DNA from: a virus
Strand: one strand, 5' to 3'
IMG/VR virus record: IMGVR_UViG_3300025000_000349
Location: 1-28,103 of that record
Length of the DNA: 28,103 nt
Shown: in pieces, positions 4,596 to 26,706 of the stretch
How positions within the stretch are numbered: position 1 is the first letter of the stretch
Layout of the letters: every line of letters starts with the position of its first letter
Program-made: the position numbers and the translations under genes
The notes under the pieces: generated by a model
Told to the model about the DNA's origin: nothing
The model's input: only the letters and a program-made list of their open reading frames with translations
The model's database searches: none

Positions 4596-5616
4596 AACGA
4601 TATTCGATGATCCGCGCCACGAAAAGTTATTACAACTATGCCAGGAATTTTATCGGCGAATTTATGCCGAGGAAGCGCCAGAGAATATCCACGACTGGAT
4701 GGTTAAGCAAATAGGGAAATTCCAACCGGAAATAGACGCCGGCCCGATTATGGATTGGCCGACCAGTTTTGAGATGTATGACCAGGAGATTGCGAGGCGC
4801 GTAGCATTTTCAAATCTGCCGGAAGAAAAAAGATTATTATATAATTGGCCTTGGACATCATGGAATAATCTTATCGATCCAATTGAGCCAGGGATATTGG
4901 CTGTTTTGGCTGGGCCAGATGGTTCTGGAAAAACAACCTATGCAGAGTGTATAGCTGAGCACTGGGCACGGCGTGGTCAGCGTGTTGTTTTTGTGCATTT
5001 TGAGCTGAGCAAAATAATCATGTTGGATCGGCGCGCCGTCAGACATACGGCGATTGCCAGGCGACAATTAAAACTCGCCGGGGAATTGACGCAAAAAGAT
5101 ATGGCTGACATAGAGGCGGCCAAAGAGAGACTGCTTGCATGGCCGGGTGAAATTACCTATCTACACACGCCGGGGCATTCCATCGAGCTTTTATTGCGCG
5201 AACTTACCCGATTGAAAGAATCTGAAAAATGTGATGTCGTTATTGTGGATTATCTCGAAAAGGCCGCGCCGTCAGCCGCACAATTAAAAGCCTATGGGGC
5301 AAATCAATATCAGCGCGAAGCTAATGATGTTGAATTGCTGAAAACCTATTCTGAAAAAGAACAGGTTCCCATACTCTCGTTATCGCAATTCAGCAAATCC
5401 GGGAAGTCGGCTCGCCTTGAAGATTTGGATAGAAATGCTATGCGCGGGGCGGGTGAGAAATCTGAAAAAGCAAACATTGTTGTGCTTCTTCAGCCAGATA
5501 AATCCGATGAGACTCTCATACATGTAAGACTTGATAAAAACACTCTTGGCCCAAAAGGATCATGGAAACAATTTATAGACTTACCTCGTTTTCAGATTGG
5601 GGATGTAGCCAAATGA
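4585..5616 (+). CDS. DnaB-like replicative helicase
   Basis: 343 residues from the GTG at 4585, chosen because GAGAGGTG lies 8 nt upstream; the ATG at 4552 has no ribosome site. The RecA-like ATPase core shows Walker A GPDGSGKTT (110-118), a VVFVHFELS strand with the Glu of the H1a motif, Walker B in VVIVDYLE (Asp222), and the LSLSQFSKSG motif (Gln268). It lacks the long N-terminal primase-binding domain of DnaB, so it is a short phage version that needs the initiator next door for loading. The start overlaps the initiator by 11 nt and the stop overlaps the HNH gene (ATGA). Confidence 0.8.
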   Translation: MENKTIFDDPRHEKLLQLCQEFYRRIYAEEAPENIHDWMVKQIGKFQPEIDAGPIMDWPTSFEMYDQEIARRVAFSNLPEEKRLLYNWPWTSWNNLIDPIEPGILAVLAGPDGSGKTTYAECIAEHWARRGQRVVFVHFELSKIIMLDRRAVRHTAIARRQLKLAGELTQKDMADIEAAKERLLAWPGEITYLHTPGHSIELLLRELTRLKESEKCDVVIVDYLEKAAPSAAQLKAYGANQYQREANDVELLKTYSEKEQVPILSLSQFSKSGKSARLEDLDRNAMRGAGEKSEKANIVVLLQPDKSDETLIHVRLDKNTLGPKGSWKQFIDLPRFQIGDVAK

Positions 5617-5900
5617 CGAAACCGACACCAGAAGAAATAGAGCGCAGAGTAGAAGAGATAGTGCGGCAAGTCAAGTATGAGGGATATTTGATGTCCCCTG
5701 CCTGGCAGCGGAAACGCAGTGCAAAATTAGCCGAATCCAATTATGCTTGTGAGGTTTGCGGATATGGATTGAGCGACATAGAGACAGCGCCATTAGATGT
5801 GCACCATAAGACGTATGATCGATTTGGACACGAAGAGCCCGACGATCTTGAAGTTCTGTGTCGTCCGTGTCACGAAGAACGACATGGGAGACAATTTTGA
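5613..5900 (+). CDS. HNH endonuclease, 95 aa
   Basis: ATG at 5613 overlaps the helicase stop. The product has a helical N-terminus and a classic HNH fold: CEVCG (Cys46, Cys49), LDVHHKTYDRFG (His64/His65), DDLEVLCRPCHEERH (Asp in the N position, Cys83/Cys86, His87/His91). Four cysteines bind zinc and His65 would be the general base. It could be a free-standing homing or host-DNA nuclease, or a packaging HNH; its distance from the terminase genes makes a replication or homing role more likely. Confidence 0.85.
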   Translation: MTKPTPEEIERRVEEIVRQVKYEGYLMSPAWQRKRSAKLAESNYACEVCGYGLSDIETAPLDVHHKTYDRFGHEEPDDLEVLCRPCHEERHGRQF

Positions 5901-7912: not shown

Positions 7913-8293
7913 ATGACTCTAACCCGTGACGAAATTTTTTCGATGACGCCCGATCGGTTGCGCGTTGAGATAGCGAAGCGCAGGGGTATTGATGTTCTTT
8001 ATCCATTTGACGGAAGGTATGGTCCATTCTGTCAAACAGGGTTGACGGGAGAGGGGAACCCGCACTTATCGGTTCTTCCTGACTGGACAACTTCCATTGC
8101 CGATGCTTGGGAGTTGGTCGAGGACGCGCAAGCCGAACAATATCAGCAAACTTTTGAGATTGGTCATACTCCGGCGATATCTAAGAGATGGTTCGTAATC
8201 ATAGGGACTCACCGCTCTGTGGGTGATACCGCGTCGCTTGCCATCTGCCGCGCCTGGCTGCTGTGGCACGAGGAGAGGAAGGAGGAGAAATGA
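7913..8293 (+). CDS. Phage ABA-sandwich domain protein
   Basis: 126 residues. The central pattern LPDWTTSIADAWELVEDA, then a strand RWFVIIG and ASLAICRAWLLWHE resembles the small phage ABA-sandwich domain (BC1872-like), in which a PxWTxDxxAAxxLV segment and a C-terminal ICRAAL helix are typical. Biochemical role unknown for the family. The stop overlaps the nuclease gene. Confidence 0.6.
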   Translation: MTLTRDEIFSMTPDRLRVEIAKRRGIDVLYPFDGRYGPFCQTGLTGEGNPHLSVLPDWTTSIADAWELVEDAQAEQYQQTFEIGHTPAISKRWFVIIGTHRSVGDTASLAICRAWLLWHEERKEEK

Positions 8294-8652
8294 CTACTGA
8301 GCGCCGCTCTCGGATCGCCACGGGCAGCGAACTAGAAGCCACGTTTGCCTTTCAAATTATGGCTGCGGGCATAAAATATCGGCGCGAATACAGGGCTATT
8401 CCAACCCGTCGCTATAAGTGGGATTTTGCGATTGAGCCAATCGAGGAAACGCGATTGCTGGTCGAGTTGAACGGCGGGACGCACCGGCATATGGGACACT
8501 CGACCGGCGTCGGCATCCAGCGTGATTATGACAAGGCAAACGCGGCGGTGTGTCATGGCTTCCGGCAGTTGACGTTCACGGCGCAGGACGTGCACGATCT
8601 TACCGCGCTGGACACGGTGTGCAAGTTGCTACTTGGAGTGGAGGCGAAATGA
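8290..8652 (+). CDS. PD-(D/E)XK nuclease, small phage type
   Basis: 120 residues, ATGA-coupled. Layout: Glu14 in an ELEATFAFQIMAAGI helix, REYRAIPTRRYKWDFAI with Asp45, then LLVELNGG with Glu59 and Asn61, followed by GVGIQRDYDKANAAV and FRQLTFTAQDV. This fits the PD-(D/E)XK core of DUF559/Vsr-like phage endonucleases. It may act in recombination or host DNA attack. Asn replaces the usual Lys or Gln of the last motif position, so activity is not assured. Confidence 0.7.
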   Translation: MTTERRSRIATGSELEATFAFQIMAAGIKYRREYRAIPTRRYKWDFAIEPIEETRLLVELNGGTHRHMGHSTGVGIQRDYDKANAAVCHGFRQLTFTAQDVHDLTALDTVCKLLLGVEAK

Positions 8653-10116: not shown

Positions 10117-10482
10117 ATGGCAGGATTACCGAAGGGAAGAACCAATAACCCAAACGGGCGACCACCCAAAAACAGGGCATTGACTGACGCCCTGGCTTTG
10201 GCATTAAAGCACACAGTTGATTTTCCTGACGGGAGAAAGGTGTCCGGCAAAAAAGTATTAGCCAATTTAGTGACAAGCGTTCTAACAACTGGGCGCATTA
10301 AATTTCCTAATGACACAGAGGAATCAATCGTTAGTGTTAAAGACTGGATGGAATTTGCGAAGTGGGCTTATGGGTATCTTGAACCGGCTGCAACGCGGCT
10401 GGAACACACTGGCGAGGACGGGAACATTTTGGAGATATTAGTCCGTTATGCAGATAGAACTGATACTACCGAGGCCACATGA
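10117..10482 (+). CDS. Probable terminase small subunit
   Basis: 121 residues from the ATG at 10117, with AAGGA just upstream; the longer frame back to 9973 overlaps another gene. The N-terminus KGRTNNPNGRPPKNRAL is the Arg/Gly/Pro pattern of DUF5681-like proteins common next to large terminase genes, followed by a helical LTDALALALKHTV segment and SVKDWMEFAKWAYGYLEP. Position directly before the large terminase, overlapping it by 35 nt, supports a DNA-recognition role in packaging. No clear helix-turn-helix is seen. Confidence 0.6.
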   Translation: MAGLPKGRTNNPNGRPPKNRALTDALALALKHTVDFPDGRKVSGKKVLANLVTSVLTTGRIKFPNDTEESIVSVKDWMEFAKWAYGYLEPAATRLEHTGEDGNILEILVRYADRTDTTEAT

Positions 10483-12712
10483 AGCGCAGCAAGCCATTAT
10501 CAACGGAGCCAAGCGATTTAATGTTGAAAGTTGCGGGCGGCGATTCGGCAAAACTATGCTTGACATACACGAGGCAGCGCCAATGTTATTAGCGGGCTAT
10601 CCTGTTGGCGGCTTCTTCCCGACATACAAAATGCTGTCTGAAACCTGGCGGCAGTTTATTGATGTATTTGCGCCTATTCGCAACAACAAGAACGAGCAGG
10701 AACACCGACTTGAATTAGTCACTGGCGGCGTGCTGGAAATGTGGTCATTGGATGCGGCCGATACTGCGCGCGGGCGCAAGTATAAGCGCGTTTTTATTGA
10801 CGAGGCCGCGATGATACCGAATCTCATGGATATCTGGAACGCCGTCATTCGCCCGATGCTGATTGACTACAAAGGCGATGCGTTTATCAAGTCAACGCCT
10901 AAAGGACACAATGGATTCTGGCAGATGTATCAGTTAGGCAACGACCCGAAAAACAGCGAATGGAAGTCGTGGCAATTCCAGACCGCCGAGAATCCATACA
11001 TTCCACAGTCAGAAATCGCGGCAATGAAGGCAAGCATGCCGGAAATTATATTCAGGCAGGAAATTATGGCTGAGTTTATCGAGTCAGACGGGGCTGTCTT
11101 CCGCCGGGTGCAGGAAGCGGCGCACGTTGAGCGACTAGACAAACCCAAAAAAGGCAGGCAGTATGCGGCGGGCGTGGACGTTGCTGCGGCTGTGGACTAC
11201 ACGGTTGTTACGGTTATGGATGTTGCCAGCAAAGAGGCTGTTTTTGTTGACCGCTTCAACCGCGTGGACTACAATGTTTTAATCGACCGGCTTGAGGCTG
11301 CATATAAACACTGGAGAATGACCGTTATGAAAATCGAGTCCAATTCCATCGGCCAGCCCGTTATAGATGCGCTGCGTGCGCGTGGCATGAATATCGTTCC
11401 GTTTACCACCACAGGCGCTACCAAACAGGTCATTATCCAGAACTTGCAGGCCGCATTCGAAAACTCACAACTCGGCATTATTGATGATCCAATTTTGATC
11501 GGCGAACTATTGAGTTTCGAGAGCAAGCGCAACGCATCTGGCTCGTTTTCATATTCCGCGCCGGACGGGATGCACGATGACTGTCTTTTGGCTGGCACAT
11601 TAATTAAAACGGACGAGGGTTATAAATCTATTGAGAATATCAAGGTCGGTGATTTAGTGCTAACCCACACGGGAAATTTCAAGCGGGTAGAGGCTTTAAT
11701 CAAGAAGCCATTTTCTGGACAATTTTACAAGGTCAAACCTGCTTGTAATCTCACGCTCGGGATCAGTTATAACCATCCGCTATATGCAGCAAAACGAGAT
11801 TATAGCGGCGATCTATCGGGGGAGTTTAATCGTAGGGACTGGGTACTTCCTGGCGACTGGAAAAAAACTTATCGAACCGTTTGTATCAAACAGCAGATTG
11901 AAAATCAAACATTGTTTGAATTATCCGAGGACGATTATTACCAGAACGGAAAATTATCAGGTAATATAAAACTACGCAAGATTGAGATAAACAAAGATTT
12001 TGCGTTGCTTACTGGCCGATTTGTCGCAGATGGACATTGCAGGAAATACGGATTTTATTCCATGGAGCTTGCGTTCAACCATAATGAGCAAGATGACATT
12101 CGGTTTTATTTGGATTATATTAATGGCCTTGGCGTGAAAGCAAGATATGAGCGCATGTCCGGGACCAATGGAGGAAAAATAATTTTTTCCAGCAAGCTTT
12201 TATATCACATATTCTTAGACACTTACAACGAAAACGGCGAGCGGAAATTACCGAAGTGGGTTTGGCGAATTGGCAAACTTGTCTCTGGTGTTTATGAAGG
12301 CTGGATTGCGGCTGATGGATGTGAGACCCGGGGGCACTTGATTGGCTGTTCAACAAGTAAGCAATTGGCGCTAGAAATTCGCGATATTGCTATGGCAATT
12401 GGCAAGTATGCAACCATTCAAGAGTTGCGAAACCGAAAAAGATATGGCAAGCCAAGTAAAGATCAATGTTGGGTAGCCGTGCACGATAAATGGATGTTTA
12501 CCGCCGGCCAGCGCAAGGTAAGTGATTTTGAATATATCTCAACAGCAAAAGTTGGCGAATACTTTTACGAAGGCGATGTTTATAACCTGCAAGTTGCCGA
12601 TGACCGGTCTTTTATTGCCAACGGAATCGTTGTGCATAACTGCGTTATGTCACTGGCGATAACGTGGGATGCGGTCAACAACAATGGCAGCGTGATTTTA
12701 TTTGGAGCGTAG
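10448..12712 (+). CDS. terL: Terminase large subunit containing an intein
   Basis: 754 residues, of which 379-731 are an intein; the spliced protein would be ~401 aa. ATPase: Walker A SCGRRFGKT (28-36), Walker B VFIDEA, coupling motif KSTPKG. Nuclease: GVDVAAAVDYTVV (first Asp), MKIESNSIG (Glu) and GMHDD-CVMSLA (last Asp), the RNase H-like three-metal-ligand set. The intein interrupts the final nuclease motif directly after DD, so the unspliced protein should be packaging-dead. It cuts and pumps genome concatemers into the prohead. The host protein end VILFGA is short, as in compact phage terminases. Confidence 0.9.
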   Translation: MQIELILPRPHEAQQAIINGAKRFNVESCGRRFGKTMLDIHEAAPMLLAGYPVGGFFPTYKMLSETWRQFIDVFAPIRNNKNEQEHRLELVTGGVLEMWSLDAADTARGRKYKRVFIDEAAMIPNLMDIWNAVIRPMLIDYKGDAFIKSTPKGHNGFWQMYQLGNDPKNSEWKSWQFQTAENPYIPQSEIAAMKASMPEIIFRQEIMAEFIESDGAVFRRVQEAAHVERLDKPKKGRQYAAGVDVAAAVDYTVVTVMDVASKEAVFVDRFNRVDYNVLIDRLEAAYKHWRMTVMKIESNSIGQPVIDALRARGMNIVPFTTTGATKQVIIQNLQAAFENSQLGIIDDPILIGELLSFESKRNASGSFSYSAPDGMHDDCLLAGTLIKTDEGYKSIENIKVGDLVLTHTGNFKRVEALIKKPFSGQFYKVKPACNLTLGISYNHPLYAAKRDYSGDLSGEFNRRDWVLPGDWKKTYRTVCIKQQIENQTLFELSEDDYYQNGKLSGNIKLRKIEINKDFALLTGRFVADGHCRKYGFYSMELAFNHNEQDDIRFYLDYINGLGVKARYERMSGTNGGKIIFSSKLLYHIFLDTYNENGERKLPKWVWRIGKLVSGVYEGWIAADGCETRGHLIGCSTSKQLALEIRDIAMAIGKYATIQELRNRKRYGKPSKDQCWVAVHDKWMFTAGQRKVSDFEYISTAKVGEYFYEGDVYNLQVADDRSFIANGIVVHNCVMSLAITWDAVNNNGSVILFGA
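11582..12640 (+). mobile_element. Intein with LAGLIDADG endonuclease in terL
   Basis: 353-residue intein. N-terminal splicing block A: CLLAGTLIKTDEGYKSIE (Cys1 nucleophile) with VGDLVLTHTG; block B: SYNHPLYA. Two LAGLIDADG motifs are spaced as expected: LLTGRFVADGHC and VYEGWIAADGCE, with LPKWVW between (block D). C-terminal blocks: VYNLQVADDRSFIANG and VVHN, followed by Cys+1. All residues for self-splicing are present. The insertion point, the TerL nuclease motif HDD-C, is a highly conserved target, typical for homing. Confidence 0.9.
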
Positions 12713-12713
12713 G

Positions 12714-14084
12714 ATGACAAACAATATCAAAACGATAACCAGCGTTCCTGGGTGGCTGACCGATTTTACAAACTCGGGCTTGCCAAAATCTACCGCGCAA
12801 CTTTATGCGACCGTGCCGCTCGTTTATCGCGCCATACGTCTGCGCGCCGATGCGCTATCCGCCGTTCCGATAAAAATTATTGCCGGAAAAGACGAAGAAA
12901 AAACATGGCCGTTTCCGACAGCATTGCGCACGCTTATCTGGCGCGCGGAAGCCGGATTATTGCAAACCGGCGGCGCATATTGGGAAATTGTTAGCAACAA
13001 GTCCGGCTACAAAAAAGATGTTCGTTTCCGCAATTCGCACTATATGGATGTAAGTTACGACAACGGAAAACTAATTTTCAAACAGACCACCGCAAACGGC
13101 GGCGAGTGGATCAACGAGCCGGATAAAGGCCTGTATCAGATGGTTTATTTCTCGGACTACGATCCTGCGCAGGACATACTTCCCGGCGTAGGCGCTGCTG
13201 AGGTTGGGAGAATCGACGCCAGGTTGATCACAGCGCTATCGAAGTTCCCCGAGGCATACTTCGAGGGCGGAGCCATGCCGGTTACGTTGCTCGGGATTGA
13301 CAGTTCGGATACCAATGAGATTGCGCGGGTAGAAAATTGGTTCAAGCGCAGCGCGACGGCCATCAAAAACGCGTTCCGCGTGCTGGGCATCCGGGCCGGG
13401 TCCATCATCCCGACCACGCTGACGCCCGACCTCGAAAAAATGGCTATGCCGGAATTGTATAACACGGCAAAGAAAAATATTGCAGTCGCGTTTGGCATAC
13501 CAGAGAGCATGCTGGATACAACCGCCGCCAATTTTGCCACGGCGCAGGAAGCGCGGCTTGGATTTTACGAGGATCAGATCAAGGCACGCGCGGCCATGTT
13601 CGAAGATGTTATCAATACGCAGCTTTTGGCGAAGGAAAAATTGTCGATCAAATTCGACTTTGAGGCCATGTCCCTTTTCCAGGAGGATGAAGCCGCCCGC
13701 GCCAAAGTTTTGCGCGAGCTTACCTATTCCGGTACGCCGCTCGAACTCGCATTTGACCTGGCCGGATATGCGCTGACACCCGAACAAATCGCGATGCTCA
13801 CCAGCGATGCGGCTCACGAACCGGCAGAGGTTGAACACATGATAGAACATACAGAGCCGCAACCGATGAATGGTCAGAACGCAGGCATAGGCGAAGAGAT
13901 GCGCCGCTGGCAGCACATGGTCGAGAAGCGCGTAAGGTCGAATAAGCCGGTGCGCGATTTCGAAAGTGATATCATTCCCGCGGCGTTGAATGGCGCAATA
14001 GCCGGGCAACTGGAATCGGCAAAAACAATCGATGATATCCGCGCCGTGTTCAAAATGGCCGCGGATTGGGAGACGTATCCGTGA
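12714..14084 (+). CDS. Portal protein, HK97 type
   Basis: 456 residues, ATG at 12714 one base after the terminase stop with GGAG 7 nt upstream. HK97-family portal features: N-terminal VYRAIRLRADALSAVPIKI, a LLQTGGAYWEI strand, a MVYFSDYDPAQDILPG strand, and the core KNIAVAFGIPESMLDTTAANFATAQEARLGFYEDQI. It forms the 12-mer ring through which DNA enters and leaves the head. The C-terminal ~70 residues are charged and helical. Its stop overlaps the next GTG start. Confidence 0.85.
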   Translation: MTNNIKTITSVPGWLTDFTNSGLPKSTAQLYATVPLVYRAIRLRADALSAVPIKIIAGKDEEKTWPFPTALRTLIWRAEAGLLQTGGAYWEIVSNKSGYKKDVRFRNSHYMDVSYDNGKLIFKQTTANGGEWINEPDKGLYQMVYFSDYDPAQDILPGVGAAEVGRIDARLITALSKFPEAYFEGGAMPVTLLGIDSSDTNEIARVENWFKRSATAIKNAFRVLGIRAGSIIPTTLTPDLEKMAMPELYNTAKKNIAVAFGIPESMLDTTAANFATAQEARLGFYEDQIKARAAMFEDVINTQLLAKEKLSIKFDFEAMSLFQEDEAARAKVLRELTYSGTPLELAFDLAGYALTPEQIAMLTSDAAHEPAEVEHMIEHTEPQPMNGQNAGIGEEMRRWQHMVEKRVRSNKPVRDFESDIIPAALNGAIAGQLESAKTIDDIRAVFKMAADWETYP

Positions 14085-15577
14085 GCGACGTTATAAATCG
14101 CGATGAACTTGAGCGCAGATTGGCGCGCGTGGTCGGGCGCGAACAGCGCGCCGAGTTGACGCAACTACTGGATGTGCTTGGCAACCCGCCGCGCATTGAA
14201 AATGTTCCGCAGGAATTTTGGGAAACGGGGTGGAAGCAATTGGCCGCTGCGGTCGAGCCGGTGATTATGGATATCTATCTTGGCCAGGCAGAGGCCATGT
14301 TGGGCACGATGCCTATCGGCGTGAGTTGGGATATGATCAACAAGGGCGCGCAGGAATACTCGCGAAGATACGGTTTTGACCTGGTTAAGGAAATCATGAA
14401 TAACACCCAGGGCGGAGTGACAGATATCCTGCGCGCATTGCAAACGGAGATACCCAATTTTTACGAAGCTGGCGTTGATCTTGGCACGCTGACCGATAGG
14501 CTAAGCCGCTGGTTCAGCCCGGTACGCGCGGAGATGATTGCTATAACTGAGACAACTCGCGCCGCATCCCATGCAGAGCAGGCAATAGCCGCTGAGATAG
14601 AACGCGAGTCGGGCGTAAAAATGATCCCGATTTGGAATACGGAGAATGACGAGCTTGTCTGTCCGTTGTGTGGGCCGCGAGATCAGAAAGAGATCACAGA
14701 CGGGATGTTCCCGCCAATTCATCCACGCTGTTTACCTGGGGATACGCTTGTATTGCCCATTGGTGGCGTTACGGCCGGAAGTGAACGGTGGTATGAGGGA
14801 AATATCATCACCATTGAAACGCTTGAAAATAAGCTCACCATCACCCCTAACCATCCAGTATTGACACCTATCGGTTGGATGGCCGCCGGTCTCCTGAAGG
14901 AGGGAGATTACATATTGGGTTACAGCGCTAGTCAATGGGAATCTCTTTCTATCAACGTCGATGATCAAAACCCCGTAACCACTGTCAAGAATATATTTAG
15001 TTCGCTTGGTGTCGATGGGTTTGGGGTGCCAACTTCCCCCCCAGACTTCCACGGTGATGGAGCCGGTTCCAATATCGCAATTATACGGCCCAACAGCAAA
15101 ATTATGAATGACGTTCAAGCCCTTGTCTCTCAGCCATCCAGCCAGTATTTTTTCTTCTTCGGAAACATTATAAGTGAGACTGCCCTCGCGCATCCTGGCG
15201 CGCAAGCACAATTCCTCGAAGGAGACGTCTCTACCAGTACAGGCGATATGAGCGGCCTTAACTTGGCGCGCGCGTTGCTCGGCTGTCATGCGCGCCCATT
15301 TGATGGTCTCGGATTGGGATTGATTCCTGGGAATGATACCCGCCCCGATAATTTTATTGCGAAAAGCGGAACGGCTAACGCCAGCCTCACGGGACAGTCG
15401 ATTCTCGGATTCACCGGCGATGTATCTGTGCAAAAGATCATCAAGGTTCAGAATACTTATTTTACTGGACATGTTTATAACCTCCAAACAGAAACAGAAT
15501 TGTATGTTGCAAATGGTATTATAACACATAACTGTAGATGTTGGCCGACATATGAACTACCAAAGGTAAAATCATGA
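14081..15577 (+). CDS. Head morphogenesis protein with an intein
   Basis: 498 residues from the GTG at 14081 (GTGA overlap with portal). Residues 1-216 and 485-498 form the SPP1 gp7/Mu gpF-type minor head protein: DLGTLTDRLSRWF, AEMIAITETTRAASHAEQ, a CPLCGPRDQ zinc pair and the terminal PIHPR-CRCW motif. The intein (residues 217-484) interrupts PIHPR|CRCW. The spliced protein is ~230 aa. It helps prohead assembly next to the portal. The opposite strand of the intein codes for another protein (14732-15472). Confidence 0.85.
   Translation: MSDVINRDELERRLARVVGREQRAELTQLLDVLGNPPRIENVPQEFWETGWKQLAAAVEPVIMDIYLGQAEAMLGTMPIGVSWDMINKGAQEYSRRYGFDLVKEIMNNTQGGVTDILRALQTEIPNFYEAGVDLGTLTDRLSRWFSPVRAEMIAITETTRAASHAEQAIAAEIERESGVKMIPIWNTENDELVCPLCGPRDQKEITDGMFPPIHPRCLPGDTLVLPIGGVTAGSERWYEGNIITIETLENKLTITPNHPVLTPIGWMAAGLLKEGDYILGYSASQWESLSINVDDQNPVTTVKNIFSSLGVDGFGVPTSPPDFHGDGAGSNIAIIRPNSKIMNDVQALVSQPSSQYFFFFGNIISETALAHPGAQAQFLEGDVSTSTGDMSGLNLARALLGCHARPFDGLGLGLIPGNDTRPDNFIAKSGTANASLTGQSILGFTGDVSVQKIIKVQNTYFTGHVYNLQTETELYVANGIITHNCRCWPTYELPKVKS
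14732..15472 (-). CDS. EDxHD/Vsr-type homing endonuclease, antisense in intein
   Basis: 246 residues from the ATG at 15472, preceded by GGAGG with 8 nt spacing. Residues ~18-45 are a helix-turn-helix (ESENRLSREAGVSRSAFRNK); 60-85 resemble a modular DNA-binding segment (RMTAEQRARQVKAAHIA). The nuclease domain shows, in Vsr/EDxHD order, Glu105-107 (SEEEKILAGWL), Asp133 (YNCDIG), Glu142 in the strand TVEVWGGSWH with His149, Asp154, and a YGVLIIDVD strand. The ORF remains open for 19 more codons upstream, but the ribosome site fixes this start. It stops at TAA on the second intein codon. It avoids TTA, CTA and TCA codons as it must, since these would stop the intein frame. It probably cuts intein-free alleles to spread the intein. 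Confidence 0.8.
   Translation of the reverse strand: MSSKISILNLDDLLHRYIAGESENRLSREAGVSRSAFRNKIIGAGIIPRNQSQSETIKWARMTAEQRARQVKAAHIACTGRDVSFEELCLRARMREGSLTYNVSEEEKILAGWLRDKGLNVIHNFAVGPYNCDIGTGSITVEVWGGSWHPKPIDTKRTKYILDSGYGVLIIDVDRKRFPLTSAVTQYVISLLQETGGHPTDRCQYWMVRGDGELIFKRFNGDDISLIPPFTSGRNATNGQYKRIPR
15518..15526 (-). promoter_or_regulatory. Extended -10 promoter for the antisense nuclease
   Basis: Read leftward, TGTTATAAT (15526-15518) is a perfect extended -10. It is embedded in the intein codons for GIITH. Transcription would start near 15511, leaving a ~39-nt leader with GGAGG before the ATG at 15472. No good -35 is seen, which extended -10 promoters do not need. Confidence 0.6.
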
Positions 15578-16068
15578 GCGTTATAATCCAGGGCATGCCG
15601 GAATTATTGACCCGCATAGACACGCTGCAAAAACTCAAGCGCGTCAAGGTGGCCGTGAAGGCCGCCGGAACATTCTTGCGCGGCAAGATCAAGAAAGCGC
15701 CGCGCGTCAACCGTCGGAAAAACATGATGTTATATGGCAATACGCAGAGAGCGCGGAAAATGCGCGCAGGGTTTTTCTACCACCTGAAACGCGGAGACAT
15801 CGAAGTGCCCTATTTCCGGGGCCAGTCGCGCGCAAGCGAAAAATTGTCTCAATCATGGGCACTTGAAACAGAAAACTATGGCTTCCGCGCAGTCGTTGGA
15901 ACCAACGTCAGTTATGCGCCGTTAGTGCAGGATCGAGACGAACAGACCGCCTATCATGCACAGGGCGGATGGATCACCGTGCAGGGCGTGCGGAATTTGT
16001 ACGGCAGGCAGGCGATTTCGTTTATCGAGGCGGCGTTGGAAGAAGAAGTCGGAGGAAAAACAAAATGA
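15574..16068 (+). CDS. HK97 gp10-like head-tail adaptor
   Basis: 164 residues, ATGA-coupled to the head morphogenesis gene. It has the N-terminal pattern of this family (LQKLKRVKVAVKAAGTFLRGKIKKAPRVN), central WALETENYGFRAVVGTNVSYAPLVQ and a C-terminal helix AISFIEAALEEE. Members act as neck or tail-completion proteins. The ordering before the capsid gene is unusual for HK97-like modules, where gp10 usually follows the capsid. Confidence 0.7.
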   Translation: MSVIIQGMPELLTRIDTLQKLKRVKVAVKAAGTFLRGKIKKAPRVNRRKNMMLYGNTQRARKMRAGFFYHLKRGDIEVPYFRGQSRASEKLSQSWALETENYGFRAVVGTNVSYAPLVQDRDEQTAYHAQGGWITVQGVRNLYGRQAISFIEAALEEEVGGKTK

Positions 16069-18137: not shown

Positions 18138-18989
18138 ATGAAAATCCTCGTGTTCTGCCCGACCTACAAACTACACAACGGCGCGCTTGCAATTCATCCG
18201 GAAACGCAGCGCAGCATAGATGCGTTGGATCACGGCGAACACAAAGTCATTATTGTTGTCAGACCAGACCCGCACGAGAACAAGACCGGAAACGTTTTGA
18301 AACAGTATCAATGGGCGCGCGCGCATGTGCTGGAAAACGGCTTCGATGCGCTGATGACCATCGAGCATGACATGATAGTGCCTCACGACGCACTTACAAA
18401 ACTGGCGGACACACCTGCGCCGGTAGTTTATGGCCTTTACATGTTTCGGCATGCCAGTCCAACGCTCAATGCATTTCGCGCAGTTCAGGCCCCGGCGATG
18501 GATCAAACACTAACCATGTTCCCCGACGAACTGAAGCGTGCCCGCGCCGCAATTGCATGGCCGGTGAGTGGACTCGGTTTTGGCTGCACGTTGATCCACC
18601 GCGAAGTTTTGGAACGGGTAGAAATGCGCCCGCCAAATGGCGGCTATTATCCCGACGGCGGACTTGCCAACGACTGCCAGCGGCTTGGCATAAAACAAAT
18701 GGCGCGTTTTGACGTAGAGTGCGGACATATCTGTGACGACGGCCATGTTTTGTGGCCGGACTTGGACGGTGAAATGGTAAATCCAACAAAGGTAAAAATA
18801 TTAGTAACTTTCAACGGTGATATCGCCGGGCGCTCTGTGCACTTTCGAGCAGGCGAGGAAACAGACATTCCGCTGGAACGCGCCCAGGAATACGCGCGCG
18901 CGGGATATTGTGCGTTGATTGACCCGCGTCCTGCCATAAAAATAGCCGGACGTGCCGACAGAATTACGAAAGTCAAGCCGGTAAAATGA
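18138..18989 (+). CDS. GT-A-type glycosyltransferase with C-terminal extra domain
   Basis: 283 residues, AGGAGA upstream. N-terminal MKILVFCPTY and a strand-helix pattern lead to LMTIEHDMIVP with Asp78, the metal-site position of GT2-like enzymes; GLGFGCTLIHREVLERV and the ANDCQRLGIK segment complete the fold. Residues ~217-265 (KVKILVTFNG to YARAGYCALI) look like a separate small beta domain known from phage head proteins. It may glycosylate capsid protein or DNA. It lies directly after the capsid gene. Confidence 0.65.
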   Translation: MKILVFCPTYKLHNGALAIHPETQRSIDALDHGEHKVIIVVRPDPHENKTGNVLKQYQWARAHVLENGFDALMTIEHDMIVPHDALTKLADTPAPVVYGLYMFRHASPTLNAFRAVQAPAMDQTLTMFPDELKRARAAIAWPVSGLGFGCTLIHREVLERVEMRPPNGGYYPDGGLANDCQRLGIKQMARFDVECGHICDDGHVLWPDLDGEMVNPTKVKILVTFNGDIAGRSVHFRAGEETDIPLERAQEYARAGYCALIDPRPAIKIAGRADRITKVKPVK

Positions 18990-19549
18990 AACTGACCATC
19001 ATCACCCCATGCACGCGACCGGAAAATCTTCGGCTTACACAACCAGGCATCGATGCTGGACGCGACTTGTTCGACATCGACTGGCGCATCGTTTTCGATA
19101 CGTCCGTATGTGAGCCGGTTTATGTCGACGGCGCAATTGTGACTGGCGTCAACATAGCCGGGTCCAGGTTCGGAAACGGTCAGCGCAATGCAGCGTTATC
19201 CATGACAGATGACGGCTGGGTATATTTTTTGGATGATGATAACAGCATGCACCCCGATTTTTTTGGTGAACTTTACGCAGCCATAAAAAAATTTGATACG
19301 CTTCGCGCGTTCGCATTTCAACAGGACGCGTCAACATTCATTCGCCCGGTCGATATCCGCGTAAATCGCATCGACATGGCGCAGGTGTGCATCCACCGCG
19401 ACTTGATAGACGACCTGCGTTTTGCGCTGCACCCCTATAATGCAGACGGCATGTTCATCGAATCGCTTTATCGATCCAATCCAAAGGACTGGTGCATTAT
19501 CAATAAACCGCTGTGTTACTACAACAAATTGAGGCTGGTATGTGCATAA
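18986..19549 (+). CDS. Small GT2-like glycosyltransferase
   Basis: 187 residues, ATGA-coupled to the first glycosyltransferase. MKLTIITPCTRPENL is the GT2 N-terminal strand; GNGQRNAALSMTDDGWVYFLDDDNSMHPDFF holds the DxD-type metal site (Asp83-85). It lacks the long C-terminal domain of membrane GTs, so it is soluble. Together with its neighbours it forms a modification cassette inside the head module. Confidence 0.75.
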   Translation: MKLTIITPCTRPENLRLTQPGIDAGRDLFDIDWRIVFDTSVCEPVYVDGAIVTGVNIAGSRFGNGQRNAALSMTDDGWVYFLDDDNSMHPDFFGELYAAIKKFDTLRAFAFQQDASTFIRPVDIRVNRIDMAQVCIHRDLIDDLRFALHPYNADGMFIESLYRSNPKDWCIINKPLCYYNKLRLVCA

Positions 19550-20133
19550 GCGACTGCCCGGTTCCAATCTATCAAGATGACGGCGAAATTCATGCGCTGC
19601 GTGAGCATGTTCGAGCGTTGAAACCTGCGCGTATCCTCGAAATCGGCTCGTTGTTTGGCGGCACGCTGTGGTACTGGATGCAGGATGCTCCCGGCGCAAA
19701 AATTGTCAGCGTGGATACCGGCGTGCAGGCATTTGATCATCGGCACGAAGATGTTGAGGCCGCGCGTGCTTTAATGTGGCCGGTTTGGGAACGCGCGACT
19801 GGTTGTGAACTGGTGCAAATTCGCGAGGATAGCACCGTCCAATCGACCATTGACCTGGTTAGAACTCATGCGCCGTTCGACTTTATTTTCATCGACGGCG
19901 GACATTCGCGAGAAATAGCGCTATCGGATTGGAAAAATTACTGGCCGATGCTGCGCGAGGGCGGACTGCTGGCGATGCATGACATTGCATATCCCGATGA
20001 CAATCCGGTCAACTACGCCGTTGGCGCAGTATGGCGTGAGGTGCGCGAAAACGGCCGCTGGATTGAGATCATTCGCGAGCACAACCCCGAAGGAATTTGG
20101 GGCATCGGCGCAATGTGGAAGGAGCGAAAATAA
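19540..20133 (+). CDS. Class I SAM-dependent methyltransferase
   Basis: 197 residues from the ATG at 19540, with GAGG 5-6 nt upstream. ARILEIGSLFGGT (30-42) is the glycine-rich SAM loop, IVSVDTG the acidic ribose-binding strand, and FDFIFIDGGHS the motif of Methyltransf_24/cephalosporin-hydroxylase-like enzymes, often seen with sugar-modifying genes. It may methylate the sugar added by the two glycosyltransferases. It overlaps both neighbours. Confidence 0.75.
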   Translation: MCISDCPVPIYQDDGEIHALREHVRALKPARILEIGSLFGGTLWYWMQDAPGAKIVSVDTGVQAFDHRHEDVEAARALMWPVWERATGCELVQIREDSTVQSTIDLVRTHAPFDFIFIDGGHSREIALSDWKNYWPMLREGGLLAMHDIAYPDDNPVNYAVGAVWREVRENGRWIEIIREHNPEGIWGIGAMWKERK

Positions 20134-22857: not shown

Positions 22858-24292
22858 CGCAACTCTAAAAATTGTAATAGACGCATTAAACAAGGGCGAT
22901 AAAACCATCAAGCAGCTTAAAGACGACTTGAAAGGCGTCGAAGGCAGTGGCAATAAAGCTAATGTTGTCATGGGGCAGCTCAAGAACATGCTTGGGGTCG
23001 CCGGTGTAACTGGCGCTGTTCTTGCTGTAGGCAACGCCGTCAAACAGTCGATCACTGACTGGTCAGCCTATGCCGAATCCATCGAAAAATCAGCGCGGCT
23101 GTCTGGCGTAGGAACCGAAGAAATGAGCCGCCTTGTTCAGGCGGCCGACGACTTCCGGGTATCGCAGGGCAGCCTTGAAACAGCTATGAAAATGGCGCTG
23201 AAAAATGGCTTTGTCCCGACTATAGACAACCTTGCCGATCTGTCCGATCAATTTGTGGCACTGAAAGACCCGGCCGACAAAGCCGAACTTGCCAGTAAAC
23301 TATTCGGCCGTCAATGGGCGGAGATAGAACCGCTGCTAAGTCAGGGTGGAGCTGCTATCCGTGACGGCACAGCGGCGATTGCTGATAATCTGGTCGTCAC
23401 ACAAAAATCAGTGGCGCAGAATAAAGAATTTATTCGGATGCTGGATGATTACCAGGATGCGTTGCAGGGTGTCAAAAATGAGGCAGGCAAAACGTTTCTT
23501 CCGATGGCAACCGACATGCTGGAAGCCATCAATAATGGCGAAAACCTGTATGAGTTTTTAGCCCGCATCCACCGAGAAGCGAAAGAATCCACCCCGGCGA
23601 TTGAAGCCTACAGCGATAGACTGACGGCGCAGGCCGAAGCTTATCGGCTGGCTACAGACGCGGCAAATGCTCATACGGATGCAACTGTAGAAGTCGTTGA
23701 TGCCACCAACAACGCAGACGCGGCCATGCGGAAATATAGCGAGGCGCTATTGTTTTCGCTGGCGAGCGAAGGGCTATCATCCGAAGCGGCACTGGCATTA
23801 GCGCAGCGCATGGGGCTGGTTGACGAAAAGACAGTGGAGGCGACCGAGAAAACCGGCGACTATAAGCGCATGCTGGATGAAGGCGCAATATCGCTTGAAA
23901 CCTATAACGCGCTTGTGGCTGGCCTTGCCTCGCATCTGGCAGAATTACAGGACAAAACCATCACTGTCACCTATAACCAGGTCGTCACCGGTACAGCGCC
24001 GGGCGGCGAGTGGAAAGCAACGCCGGTTAGTGGAGATACATCGTTTGAAGCGCGCGCTTCCGGCGGGCCGGTTATGGCAGGCATGCCCTATTGGGTTGGC
24101 GAGCGCGGGCCGGAACTGGTCATGCCAAAGACAAGTGGGCAGGTCATCTCCACCGAGGACTTGCGCGAACTATTTAGCGGCGCAAACGGCAAGATTGAAA
24201 TCAACGTTTACGGCGCGGATGATCCGCAACGAACGGCGAATCTAATCGGCATAAACTTTAGGGCAGCGCAGGCGCTGGCAGGGGTAGCATAA
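22850..24292 (+). CDS. Tape measure protein
   Basis: 480 residues, overlapping the chaperone frame by 8 nt. Helical throughout: basic N-terminus, a hydrophobic stretch at ~46-66 (NMLGVAGVTGAVLAVGNAV), long Ala/Glu-rich helices, and the typical C-terminal SGGPVMAGMPYWVGERGPEL segment. It sets tail length; 480 aa predicts a short tail (about 70 nm at ~1.5 angstrom per residue). Confidence 0.8.
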   Translation: MADATLKIVIDALNKGDKTIKQLKDDLKGVEGSGNKANVVMGQLKNMLGVAGVTGAVLAVGNAVKQSITDWSAYAESIEKSARLSGVGTEEMSRLVQAADDFRVSQGSLETAMKMALKNGFVPTIDNLADLSDQFVALKDPADKAELASKLFGRQWAEIEPLLSQGGAAIRDGTAAIADNLVVTQKSVAQNKEFIRMLDDYQDALQGVKNEAGKTFLPMATDMLEAINNGENLYEFLARIHREAKESTPAIEAYSDRLTAQAEAYRLATDAANAHTDATVEVVDATNNADAAMRKYSEALLFSLASEGLSSEAALALAQRMGLVDEKTVEATEKTGDYKRMLDEGAISLETYNALVAGLASHLAELQDKTITVTYNQVVTGTAPGGEWKATPVSGDTSFEARASGGPVMAGMPYWVGERGPELVMPKTSGQVISTEDLRELFSGANGKIEINVYGADDPQRTANLIGINFRAAQALAGVA

Positions 24293-26706
24293 TGGCACTC
24301 ACACGCGAAAAGTTTTACATCATAGTACCAAAAGCGTCAACCAATCTGTGCACCAATCCAAGTTTCGAGACCGCAACGACCGGGTGGGCGTCTGCTGGCG
24401 CAGGCGCAAGCATAGCCAGATCAACCCTATGGCAATCGCGTGGCGTATATTCGTTGGAGAGCAGTCCAGCAACTGGTGTATCATGCGGCGCTAGTTTTGA
24501 CCTCGCTCTGACGAGTGGCGTCACTTACACGGTATCCATCGATGTCAAAGACGTGGCGGGTCAGAATTTTAGACTCTATTGGCATAATCTATCTGCACCC
24601 GTTGGAACGCCTACCACGTGGGCTGGAACCGGTACGACAACCAGGCGCACGGCAACCTATACGGCGGCAACATCTGCCACATACCGAGTATATATTTTGC
24701 GGGATGCGATTGCAAGCACGACAAAATTCTACATAGACGGCTGCCTCATCGAAGCGGCGAGCGAAGCGTCAACCTACTTTGACGGCGATTCATGGGGGCT
24801 GACACTCCAGCGCGATTACGGCTGGAACGGCACGCGGCAGGCATCCACATCCTACCGTCTGGCACGAACACGGGCGGGTGGCACGCTGCTGGATATCGAA
24901 ACCTACGCGAAAATTCTGGGTCATTACGGCTTAGGCCGCGCACCCGAACAGCATTTCACGAGCGAGATTAACGCGGACGGCGAACTGTATCAGGCTACGA
25001 AAGTCATGCCGCGCGATTTTGTCATCAATATGGTTTTTTCCGGCAGCACCGCTGACGTTGCCACACAGCGAAAGGCGCTGCTGGCCGCGTTGCAATTGGA
25101 TAGGACACCTATCCGGCAGCCGATTGTCTTGCGCTATCAGGGAACGGATGAAAGCGGCAACTGGATGACAGAGCCGGTTGACATCAAATGCCTTTACAAG
25201 GGCGGGTTGGAGCGCAGCGCGAGCACCTACGGAGTTGAAAAATGCGCGGTGCAATTCCAGATGACCTCGCCTTACATGGACGTGGACGGCGAAACAGGCA
25301 CAGAACTGGGTTACGCTTCGTCTGTCACAAACTTTGCCAACATCGGCTACCGCGATACCGACGGCGTGTGGAAGGCCATGGGTACGGGAGTAAGTGGTGG
25401 GCCGGTCGAATGTATGGTGAAAATGGCAGATGGAAGCATTGTTATTGGGGGCGAATTTACCAGTGCGGGCGGGGTAGCTAACACGGCGCATATTGCAAAA
25501 TGGACGGGTACGGCTTGGCAGGCGCTTGGAACTGGGGCAAATAGTAACGTTTTTGCATTGGCGATTGGCCCAGATGGCTATTTGTATGCTGGGGGCCAGT
25601 TTACAAGCATGGGGGGGGTGGCCAACACTGCTAGAATCGCGCGGTGGACTGGTTCTGCATGGCAAGCGTTATCAACCGGAATTGCATCTGGTTTTGTTTG
25701 GGATTTGACATTTGGATTTGATGGGAAATTATATATTGGTGGTTCGTTTACAAATCATATAGATGCTAATGGCGATTATATAACCATTTGGGATGGTAGT
25801 GCATATACCTCGTTGGGAACAGGTATGAATAATGAGGTAAAAGCTTTAATAACCGGATTGGATGGAGCCATATATGCTGGTGGTGCTTTCACCTTAGCAA
25901 ATGGGGTCAGCGCAAGTAAGGTTGCCAAATGGGATGGTTCTACGTGGACGGCGCTTGGGGCGGGAGCAAATAATAACGTTTATGAACTTGCGATAGGATT
26001 GGATGGGGCCATATATATTGGGGGTATTTTCACTTCGGCTGGAGGAGTTTCGGGAACAGCATATGTCGCGAAGTGGAACGGCTCGGCATGGCAGGCGCTT
26101 AGTACAGGCACAAGTGGCACTGTATACACCATTTCTGTAAATTCTGATGGATCAGTAAATATCGGCGGGACATTTGGAAGCGCAGGCGGTGTCATCATGC
26201 CAGATCGTATGGCCATCTGGCGCGGCGGCGGCTGGCAGCCTATGGATGTGAACGTGAGCGCCACATCTGCAACAATATATTCTATTCTCCCTCTGGAAGA
26301 TGGTCGCGTTTACGTTGGCGGTAGCTGGGTTGGCAGCACAGCAACATCCGCAACGGTGACAGTCCCCAATAACACGGGAACGAAAGCCTATCCTGAAATT
26401 GAGATTTACGGGCCGGGAACGATCTGGCAGATCAAGAATTACACCAACGATGCTGCGCTTTATTTTGAGAATTTGACTTTGCTGACCGGCGAGAGCGTGT
26501 TCATCGACTGTAATCCGTTCAGGTTCCGCATCCTGTCCTCGTGGCGCGGTGACTTGCAAAACTATATCCTTCCCGGATCGACAAATCTCGTGCTCGAGCC
26601 CGGAAACAATAATGTATCCGCGTACTTGATGAATACCGGCGCAGGCAGCAGCCTCAACATGAGCTGGAAGCCTACGCTTTCCACCATTGACGAGGCTTTG
26701 CGGTGA
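24292..26706 (+). CDS. Distal tail protein with CBM and inserted beta-propeller
   Basis: 804 residues, TAATG-coupled. Three parts: (1) residues ~16-165, a carbohydrate-binding-like jelly roll starting NLCTNPSFETATTGW; (2) a Dit-like core, ~200-345 (PRDFVINMVFSG, QRKALLAALQLDR, EKCAVQFQMTSPYMDVDG) resuming at ~690-804 (YPEIEIYGPGTIWQIKNY, TGESVFIDC) as the galectin-like half; (3) between them ~360-685, seven repeats of ~47 residues of the form V..L....DG.LY.GG.FT...GV......KW.G..W..L. The first outer strand (VWKAMGTG) precedes repeat 1 and the last repeat is incomplete, as in a seven-bladed propeller closed by its N-terminus. Repeats 3-6 are more AT-rich than the flanks. Likely hub and receptor-binding roles. 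Confidence 0.7.
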   Translation: MALTREKFYIIVPKASTNLCTNPSFETATTGWASAGAGASIARSTLWQSRGVYSLESSPATGVSCGASFDLALTSGVTYTVSIDVKDVAGQNFRLYWHNLSAPVGTPTTWAGTGTTTRRTATYTAATSATYRVYILRDAIASTTKFYIDGCLIEAASEASTYFDGDSWGLTLQRDYGWNGTRQASTSYRLARTRAGGTLLDIETYAKILGHYGLGRAPEQHFTSEINADGELYQATKVMPRDFVINMVFSGSTADVATQRKALLAALQLDRTPIRQPIVLRYQGTDESGNWMTEPVDIKCLYKGGLERSASTYGVEKCAVQFQMTSPYMDVDGETGTELGYASSVTNFANIGYRDTDGVWKAMGTGVSGGPVECMVKMADGSIVIGGEFTSAGGVANTAHIAKWTGTAWQALGTGANSNVFALAIGPDGYLYAGGQFTSMGGVANTARIARWTGSAWQALSTGIASGFVWDLTFGFDGKLYIGGSFTNHIDANGDYITIWDGSAYTSLGTGMNNEVKALITGLDGAIYAGGAFTLANGVSASKVAKWDGSTWTALGAGANNNVYELAIGLDGAIYIGGIFTSAGGVSGTAYVAKWNGSAWQALSTGTSGTVYTISVNSDGSVNIGGTFGSAGGVIMPDRMAIWRGGGWQPMDVNVSATSATIYSILPLEDGRVYVGGSWVGSTATSATVTVPNNTGTKAYPEIEIYGPGTIWQIKNYTNDAALYFENLTLLTGESVFIDCNPFRFRILSSWRGDLQNYILPGSTNLVLEPGNNNVSAYLMNTGAGSSLNMSWKPTLSTIDEALR

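Follow-up and report, generated by a model that had tools for sequence, protein, structure and literature searches.

A phage intein with a predicted homing endonuclease gene on its opposite strand

Can one stretch of viral DNA encode a protein-splicing element on one strand and, through the same base pairs read in the opposite direction, the endonuclease that would spread it? The question is raised by a segment of IMG/VR virus record IMGVR_UViG_3300025000_000349, for which a sequence-only reading had claimed an intein and a homing endonuclease encoded on opposite strands of the same ~800 bp. Positions 1 to 28,103 of that record form the stretch of DNA analysed here (28,103 nucleotides), hereafter the window. 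Inteins are generally understood either as in-frame fusions of splicing and homing functions, or as mini-inteins from which the nuclease has been lost; the in-frame fusion of nuclease and intein is the textbook layout (PMC3943268).

The host gene (14066..15577, + strand) adjoins the portal gene and encodes a MuF/SPP1-gp7-like head morphogenesis protein, the exteins of which (N-extein 14066-14728; C-extein 15533-15577) matched PHROG head families, with Phage_Mu_F reached only below threshold. Its reading frame is continuous over 14066-15577 and is not broken into two open reading frames carrying intein halves. Between the exteins lies an element of 268 aa (14729..15532, + strand) that matched Pfam Intein_splicing (PF14890; E=5.7e-11) as well as NCBIfam intein_Cterm, and that possesses the residues of a class 1 type intein, namely Cys1, T39-P-N-H42, H267-N268 and Cys+1. 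Conservation among 35 inteins supports the assignment of block B (T39-P-N-H42; 14843..14854, + strand), with T39 invariant and P40, N41 and H42 each conserved in at least 90%. The Hint parts at both ends were modelled by AF2 with pLDDT of about 75-98, mostly above 90, and Foldseek returned the Mtu RecA intein as their best PDB match (probability 1.00), together with other inteins. By sequence and predicted structure, the element is an intein of class 1 type, its splicing being inferred. The canonical in-frame endonuclease between blocks B and F is absent from the sense frame. The centre found there (residues 69-228; 14933..15412, + strand), delimited by AF2 and codon positions, is mostly without predicted fold (pLDDT below 50 at residues 69-81, 99-106 and 111-228) and mirrors the nuclease described below. 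It has conserved residues, e.g. DFHGD, and searches of Pfam, PHROG and NCBIfam matched no nuclease family in the sense frame.

On the opposite strand we identified a gene of 246 aa (14732..15472, - strand; ATG 15472-15470, TAA 14734-14732), the codons of which are exact reverse complements of intein codons (complementary register), with endonuclease residue j pairing with intein residue 249-j and the TAA being the complement of intein codon 2. The likely start is the ATG at 15472, which has GGAGG 8 nt upstream. The gene overlaps the entire N-terminal splicing half and the centre of the intein, but the C-terminal half only at its start, beginning at intein residue 248. The remaining 20 codons of the intein (block G) lie outside its coding part; we infer from sequence alone that they probably serve as promoter and leader region of the antisense gene. 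The encoded protein comprises an N-terminal helix-turn-helix (HTH) region (residues 10-43; 15344..15445, - strand; AF2 helices 10-18, 23-30 and 34-43), a Vsr-like/EDxHD nuclease core of PD-(D/E)XK type (residues 105-197; 14882..15160, - strand), and a C-terminal extension (residues 198-246; 14735..14881, - strand; pLDDT about 87-95). The catalytic core lies antisense mainly to the unstructured intein centre, with catalytic E142 facing intein F107. The extension mirrors blocks A-B and is strictly double-coded, both frames being constrained, and a VRG strand faces the TPNH of block B.

Queried singly, the antisense protein matched nothing convincing in Pfam, PHROGs, NCBIfam or the PDB; only family profiles gave convincing matches. 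The family profile matched 3r3p (E=1.2e-5) and the endonuclease-like 3hrl (E=7e-6). Similarly, the AF2 model built from 61 sequences (mean pLDDT 94.3) placed 3r3p, the catalytic domain of the homing endonuclease I-Bth0305I, at Foldseek rank 1, with a modest E-value (0.011) despite a probability of 1.00. Among the 61 antisense members, Pfam matches included REase_MTES_1575 (MTES_1575) in 45, DUF559 in 13 and many HTH families, the latter in about half of the members. Column counts placed D133 and E142 in 61/61 members, E107 and R157 in 58/61 and H149 in 49/61, and all five residues are present in the window protein. The final D of EDxHD is not conserved, R157 being found instead; EDxHD as applied to this protein denotes a relationship rather than a strict motif match. 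We regard an HTH joined to a Vsr-like/EDxHD nuclease as a highly probable, model-predicted identity for the protein, with cleavage inferred in the absence of activity data. Most of what had been claimed by the sequence-only reading held: the intein and endonuclease on opposite strands, with coordinates and residues confirmed; the splicing blocks, Cys1, HN and Cys+1 around an atypical centre without nuclease motif (Pfam, AF2, no sense nuclease match); and the 246-codon antisense gene in exact register ending on the second intein codon. The claimed helix-turn-helix and Vsr/EDxHD nuclease with Asp133, Glu142 and His149 also held, borne out by the profile search and Foldseek ranking above, with the refinement that the H and the last D are not invariant in the family. 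The claim of a full-length antisense nuclease overlapping both splicing halves held only in part, as the C-terminal half is overlapped only at its start.

With the antisense protein as tblastn query, matches were found in 120 phage records, 104 of them with at least 80% coverage, from phages of Salmonella, Pseudomonas, Gordonia, Escherichia, Vibrio, Acinetobacter, Haemophilus and others; against the same phages the antisense protein outscored the sense frame (127 vs 97 bits). Antisense homologues were also identified in 196 viral-contig stretches in one scan, and alignment-guided scans of viral contigs and bacterial genomes yielded 119 further loci, using subfamilies because the first 21 homologues, aligned together, proved too diverse for scanning collections. 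At 140 of 144 endonuclease loci both intein halves are found on the opposite strand, 139 fully in register 0; the 140 include one frameshifted locus (L024, in a record marked UNVERIFIED). The exceptions are three loci with the N-half only and one free-standing gene (L018). The locus set was partly collected using the antisense protein as query; Sejanus, AH01, RCIP0015 and PvVp04, which were reached via the sense intein only, also carry the antisense gene. Insertion sites mostly correspond to the conserved C-terminal Cys motif of MuF-like proteins (HPN/CRC, with the intein between N and C). Among the records opened, the antisense gene was annotated fully only in PK1 and partly in vB_StyS-sam.

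Two loci differ in setting. In virus Rctr197k (L014, 619-2025, - strand), an antisense-endonuclease intein lies, by eye, in an apparent dCMP deaminase zinc motif (PC..C); the 'head morphogenesis' annotation of its host gene probably stems from the intein. Also identified was an Anaerolineaceae genome region with two inteins within about 4 kb (G001:C18:608724-613650, the L138 region), one of which coincides with the antisense-endonuclease intein or lies close to it; the region may belong to the head genes of a prophage.

Selection was examined on both strands. Antisense-stop codons (TTA, CTA, TCA) account for 1.94% of all codons in the exteins of these genes, so that about 550 would be expected among the 28,503 inner codons of a non-redundant set of 111 inteins. 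Only six were observed, four being the gene's own stop and two real (L127 and L144), which makes antisense stops about 280 times rarer in the intein than in the flanking host protein; interior stops are absent from 109 of the 111 inteins. The same codons amount to 1.8% in 31 ordinary bacterial inteins (a control relaxed to this size after a first set gave only six), nine of which show no antisense stop across about 180 codons. An internal negative control comes from the window itself, where an intein of 353 aa (11582-12640, within 10448-12712, + strand) in the terminase large subunit (TerL) has 16 antisense stops in the corresponding register. The free-standing reading frame of Acinetobacter phage IME285 (L018) contains 12 codons that would close the opposite frame, and openness is therefore not inherent to the endonuclease family.

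Regarding individual members, the antisense gene is interrupted at codon 136 in L127 and at codon 78 in L144, while the sense intein stays open; here the nuclease decays and the intein does not, a case of natural endonuclease decay. The TerL intein of the window appears to be of the canonical in-frame type, with a LAGLIDADG-like centre by eye.

Codon positions were compared in 40 disjoint pairs, aligned conservatively by the sense protein. Differences at sense positions 1, 2 and 3 were 0.478, 0.226 and 0.343 in the centre, and 0.328, 0.256 and 0.545 in the exteins. In the centre, sense position 1, which is the antisense wobble, evolves faster than position 3 in 38 of 40 pairs; being the fastest position, it indicates that the wobble base there belongs to the antisense gene. 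Moreover, antisense identity exceeds sense identity in the centre in 39/40 pairs, even though alignment was by the sense protein, and the exteins show the reverse. At sense fourfold sites, differences rose from 0.174 (centre) through 0.367 (N-domain) and 0.449 (last 20 codons, beyond the antisense gene) to 0.539 (exteins); at antisense fourfold sites they were 0.440 (centre) and 0.161 (N-domain). Coding in the centre is therefore mainly antisense and that in the last 20 codons mainly sense, with the N-domain carrying both. Purifying selection acts on the antisense frame, and both strands are constrained in the N-domain.

Sequence signals for expression of the antisense gene were found within the splicing blocks themselves. 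A Shine-Dalgarno sequence and start codon, GGAGG-TTATAAAC-ATG (15470..15485, - strand), form the complement of block F His-Val-Tyr-Asn-Leu(CTC), the Leu CTC becoming the Shine-Dalgarno and the His CAT the start codon on the other strand. Both codons are strongly preferred: CAT is used for the block F His in 78/86 cases vs 39% in exteins (p about 1e-23), an excess that persists in GC-rich hosts, and CTC for the block F Leu in 82/100 vs 24% (p about 1e-34). When codons were resampled in 93 inteins with each host's own usage, the combined Shine-Dalgarno and ATG was expected in 4.7 and was observed in 59. An extended -10 promoter-like element, TGTTATAAT (15518..15526, - strand), exact in the window, is likewise the complement of block G Ile-Ile-Thr. 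The exact extended -10, TGNTATAAT, occurs in 21 of the 93 inteins, against an expectation of 0.39 and a highest count of 3 over 500 resamplings, and the block G Ile and Thr codons are biased to suit it (p 1e-9 to 1e-15). Exact matches are restricted to about a quarter of inteins; neither signal was present in any of the 31 ordinary bacterial inteins. No -35 box for an antisense promoter was seen in leader alignments, and a sigma-70 scan of 15400-15700 gave no convincing site. The signals are kept at synonymous sense positions; promoter use and expression are inferred, there being no transcript or protein data.

The distribution of occupied and empty sites bears on mobility. The intein-free joined site was covered by at least 80% in 404 phage records, relatives of Snoke; in intein-carrying relatives of Snoke the match splits at the junction. 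Snoke (Kagunavirus) and PK1 (Jerseyvirus) share 97.4% identity in the intein and 80-88% in the exteins. Divergence does not always run in the homing direction, since the exteins of L010 and L104 are closer than their inteins.

The exceptional locus in IME285 (L018, 455-1348, + strand, and 1342-2118, - strand) has a free endonuclease gene beside an intein-free MuF gene, convergent with it and overlapping its end by 7 nt. This gene may be an escaped endonuclease or may represent the ancestral state. It falls within the long-form clade in the tree, its exact place being unresolved, and a search of it for a remnant of the C-terminal extension scored no better than shuffles.

Anatomy, homology, conservation, dual selection, conserved expression signals and empty sites of this antisense-endonuclease intein are established by the analyses above. 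They are best read, with considerable confidence, as a mobile intein with a homing endonuclease encoded separately, by a gene on the opposite strand; expression, splicing, cleavage of the insertion site and homing remain inferences. In this view, the class-1-type intein would splice itself from the MuF-like head morphogenesis protein, its centre being a long passenger without fold. Antisense transcription would start from the extended -10 promoter inside block G codons, and translation from the Shine-Dalgarno and ATG inside block F codons, yielding a free HTH-nuclease of Vsr-like/EDxHD type that is not fused in frame. In co-infected cells, MuF alleles lacking the intein would be cut by the enzyme at the conserved Cys-Arg-Cys insertion site or close to it, and repair would copy the intein into the empty allele; antisense transcription could make the timing of the nuclease independent of the late head genes. 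A bolder reading, which we favour with less assurance, takes these phage inteins as a widespread class, with several overlapping messages packed into a single stretch of DNA (a splicing domain, an endonuclease gene in complementary register, a ribosome binding site with start codon in block F and a promoter in block G); the nuclease would then owe its C-terminal extension to overprinting of an ancient intein N-domain.

The alternative that survives best, although we consider it improbable, is that the nuclease is real and mainly attacks competing phages, excluding intein-free relatives, or has some other phage function rather than homing. In its favour, IME285 retains a free-standing relative next to a MuF gene without intein, and intron-encoded phage endonucleases can act in competition between phages (mentioned in PMC6669764). 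Against it, nearly all relatives lie inside an intein at the same conserved motif, a layout expected for homing, and presence is sporadic with intein-free alleles; moreover, the roles are not exclusive, as cutting the empty allele serves both. Less plausible still, the window might hold a decayed relic in which the intein was kept and the endonuclease is dead. Decayed members do exist, as seen from the stops in L127 and L144 and the frameshift in the UNVERIFIED L024, but in the window the frame, residues E107, D133, E142, H149 and R157, the Shine-Dalgarno, the ATG and the exact -10 element are all intact.

Two further explanations are all but excluded. According to the first, the open antisense frame encodes nothing and is a by-product of sense coding through complementary register, codon bias and high GC. 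The complementary register does tend to be open in GC-rich genes, and nine of the 31 ordinary inteins are stop-free over about 180 codons. Against this stand the better conservation of the antisense frame in 39 of 40 pairs, the Shine-Dalgarno, ATG and -10 kept at synonymous sites, a fold at 94 pLDDT with nuclease homology, and known nuclease families in 45 of 61 members. Chance or mirror coding was ruled out by counting stops, by comparing codon positions and fourfold sites, and by nulls from resampled codons. The second, that the sense centre is itself a functional in-frame endonuclease or tether domain with the antisense frame secondary, can draw on the position of the nuclease in canonical inteins and on conserved residues such as DFHGD, but fails on pLDDT below 50, the lack of a nuclease family match, the mirroring of catalytic E142 by conserved F107, and position 1 being fastest.

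The preferred reading, of a mobile intein with a separate opposite-strand endonuclease, can be compared with several known systems. Canonical mobile inteins with an in-frame LAGLIDADG or HNH endonuclease (e.g. PI-PfuI) likewise combine splicing domain and homing endonuclease in one mobile unit, but their nuclease is made within the intein polypeptide (PMC3943268), whereas in the window it is a separate antisense gene. I-Bth0305I, from a group I intron, and the EDxHD nucleases of fractured genes share the nuclease fold, the E-D-E-(H) core, an additional DNA-binding part and a phage setting; EDxHD nucleases are reported to occur in 'fractured genes' with split inteins (Dassa 2009). The window gene differs from these EDxHD/Vsr-like nucleases in overlapping a contiguous intein on the other strand, and to our knowledge no EDxHD/Vsr-like homing endonuclease, free-standing or intron-encoded, is double-coded with a splicing domain. 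In ShiLan-type insertions, a non-splicing arrangement described in 2025 (PMC11855218), an out-of-frame HNH endonuclease is likewise hidden in another frame of an insertion that is open in the host frame. That gene runs in the host's direction, from a GTG 18 bp into the insertion to a TAA in its last bases, with no detectable splicing domain and no ribosome binding site found (PMC11855218); in contrast, the window has a true intein with complete Hint domain, and an endonuclease gene on the opposite strand with a conserved ribosome binding site and a -10 element. In nuclear rDNA group I introns, homing endonuclease genes that run antisense to host gene and splicing element are likewise known (e.g. 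I-DsqI; PMC9548176); there, however, splicing is of RNA, the gene is inserted in peripheral segment P9.2, and no stretch encodes two proteins.

The open literature that was searched contained no description of an endonuclease gene double-coded antisense to a real intein, and novelty rests on that search; to this extent, the earlier claim that the arrangement is not known to be described stands. The opposite-strand arrangement itself would have been refuted by an absence of homologues of the minus-strand protein, or by homologous inteins with many antisense stops and no selection in the antisense frame. Homologues were found (the 120 phage records and 196 viral-contig stretches above), and the frame is kept open under purifying selection evident at codon positions and fourfold sites. 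What had been framed as a single case is a widespread family. With the arrangement conserved in more than 100 other viruses, a widespread and apparently undescribed double-coded selfish gene is the likely interpretation. If this is true, a complete endonuclease can lie hidden opposite phage inteins that carry an ordinary or nuclease-free annotation, and gene callers have therefore missed a whole nuclease family. The family would also be one of the rare examples in which two proteins are encoded antisense to each other over a long stretch in exact register, and in which selection can be measured on either strand, here in more than 100 divergent members. It would uncouple nuclease expression from expression of the host protein, and its compact mobile elements and new site-specific nucleases invite study.

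Elsewhere in the window, we also identified an HNH endonuclease gene (5562-5900, + strand; Pfam HNH E=9e-6) and a small free-standing DUF559-like nuclease (8263-8652, + strand; E=7e-4) whose fold type is related to that of the antisense endonuclease domain. At 18138-20133 (+ strand), downstream of the capsid gene, a protein without Pfam match, a glycosyltransferase-2-like protein and a CmcI-like methyltransferase form an unusual insertion in the structural module. Further on, a probable tail-region protein (24292-26706, + strand) combines a carbohydrate-binding domain with propeller-like repeats (CBM_4_9, DUF5122).
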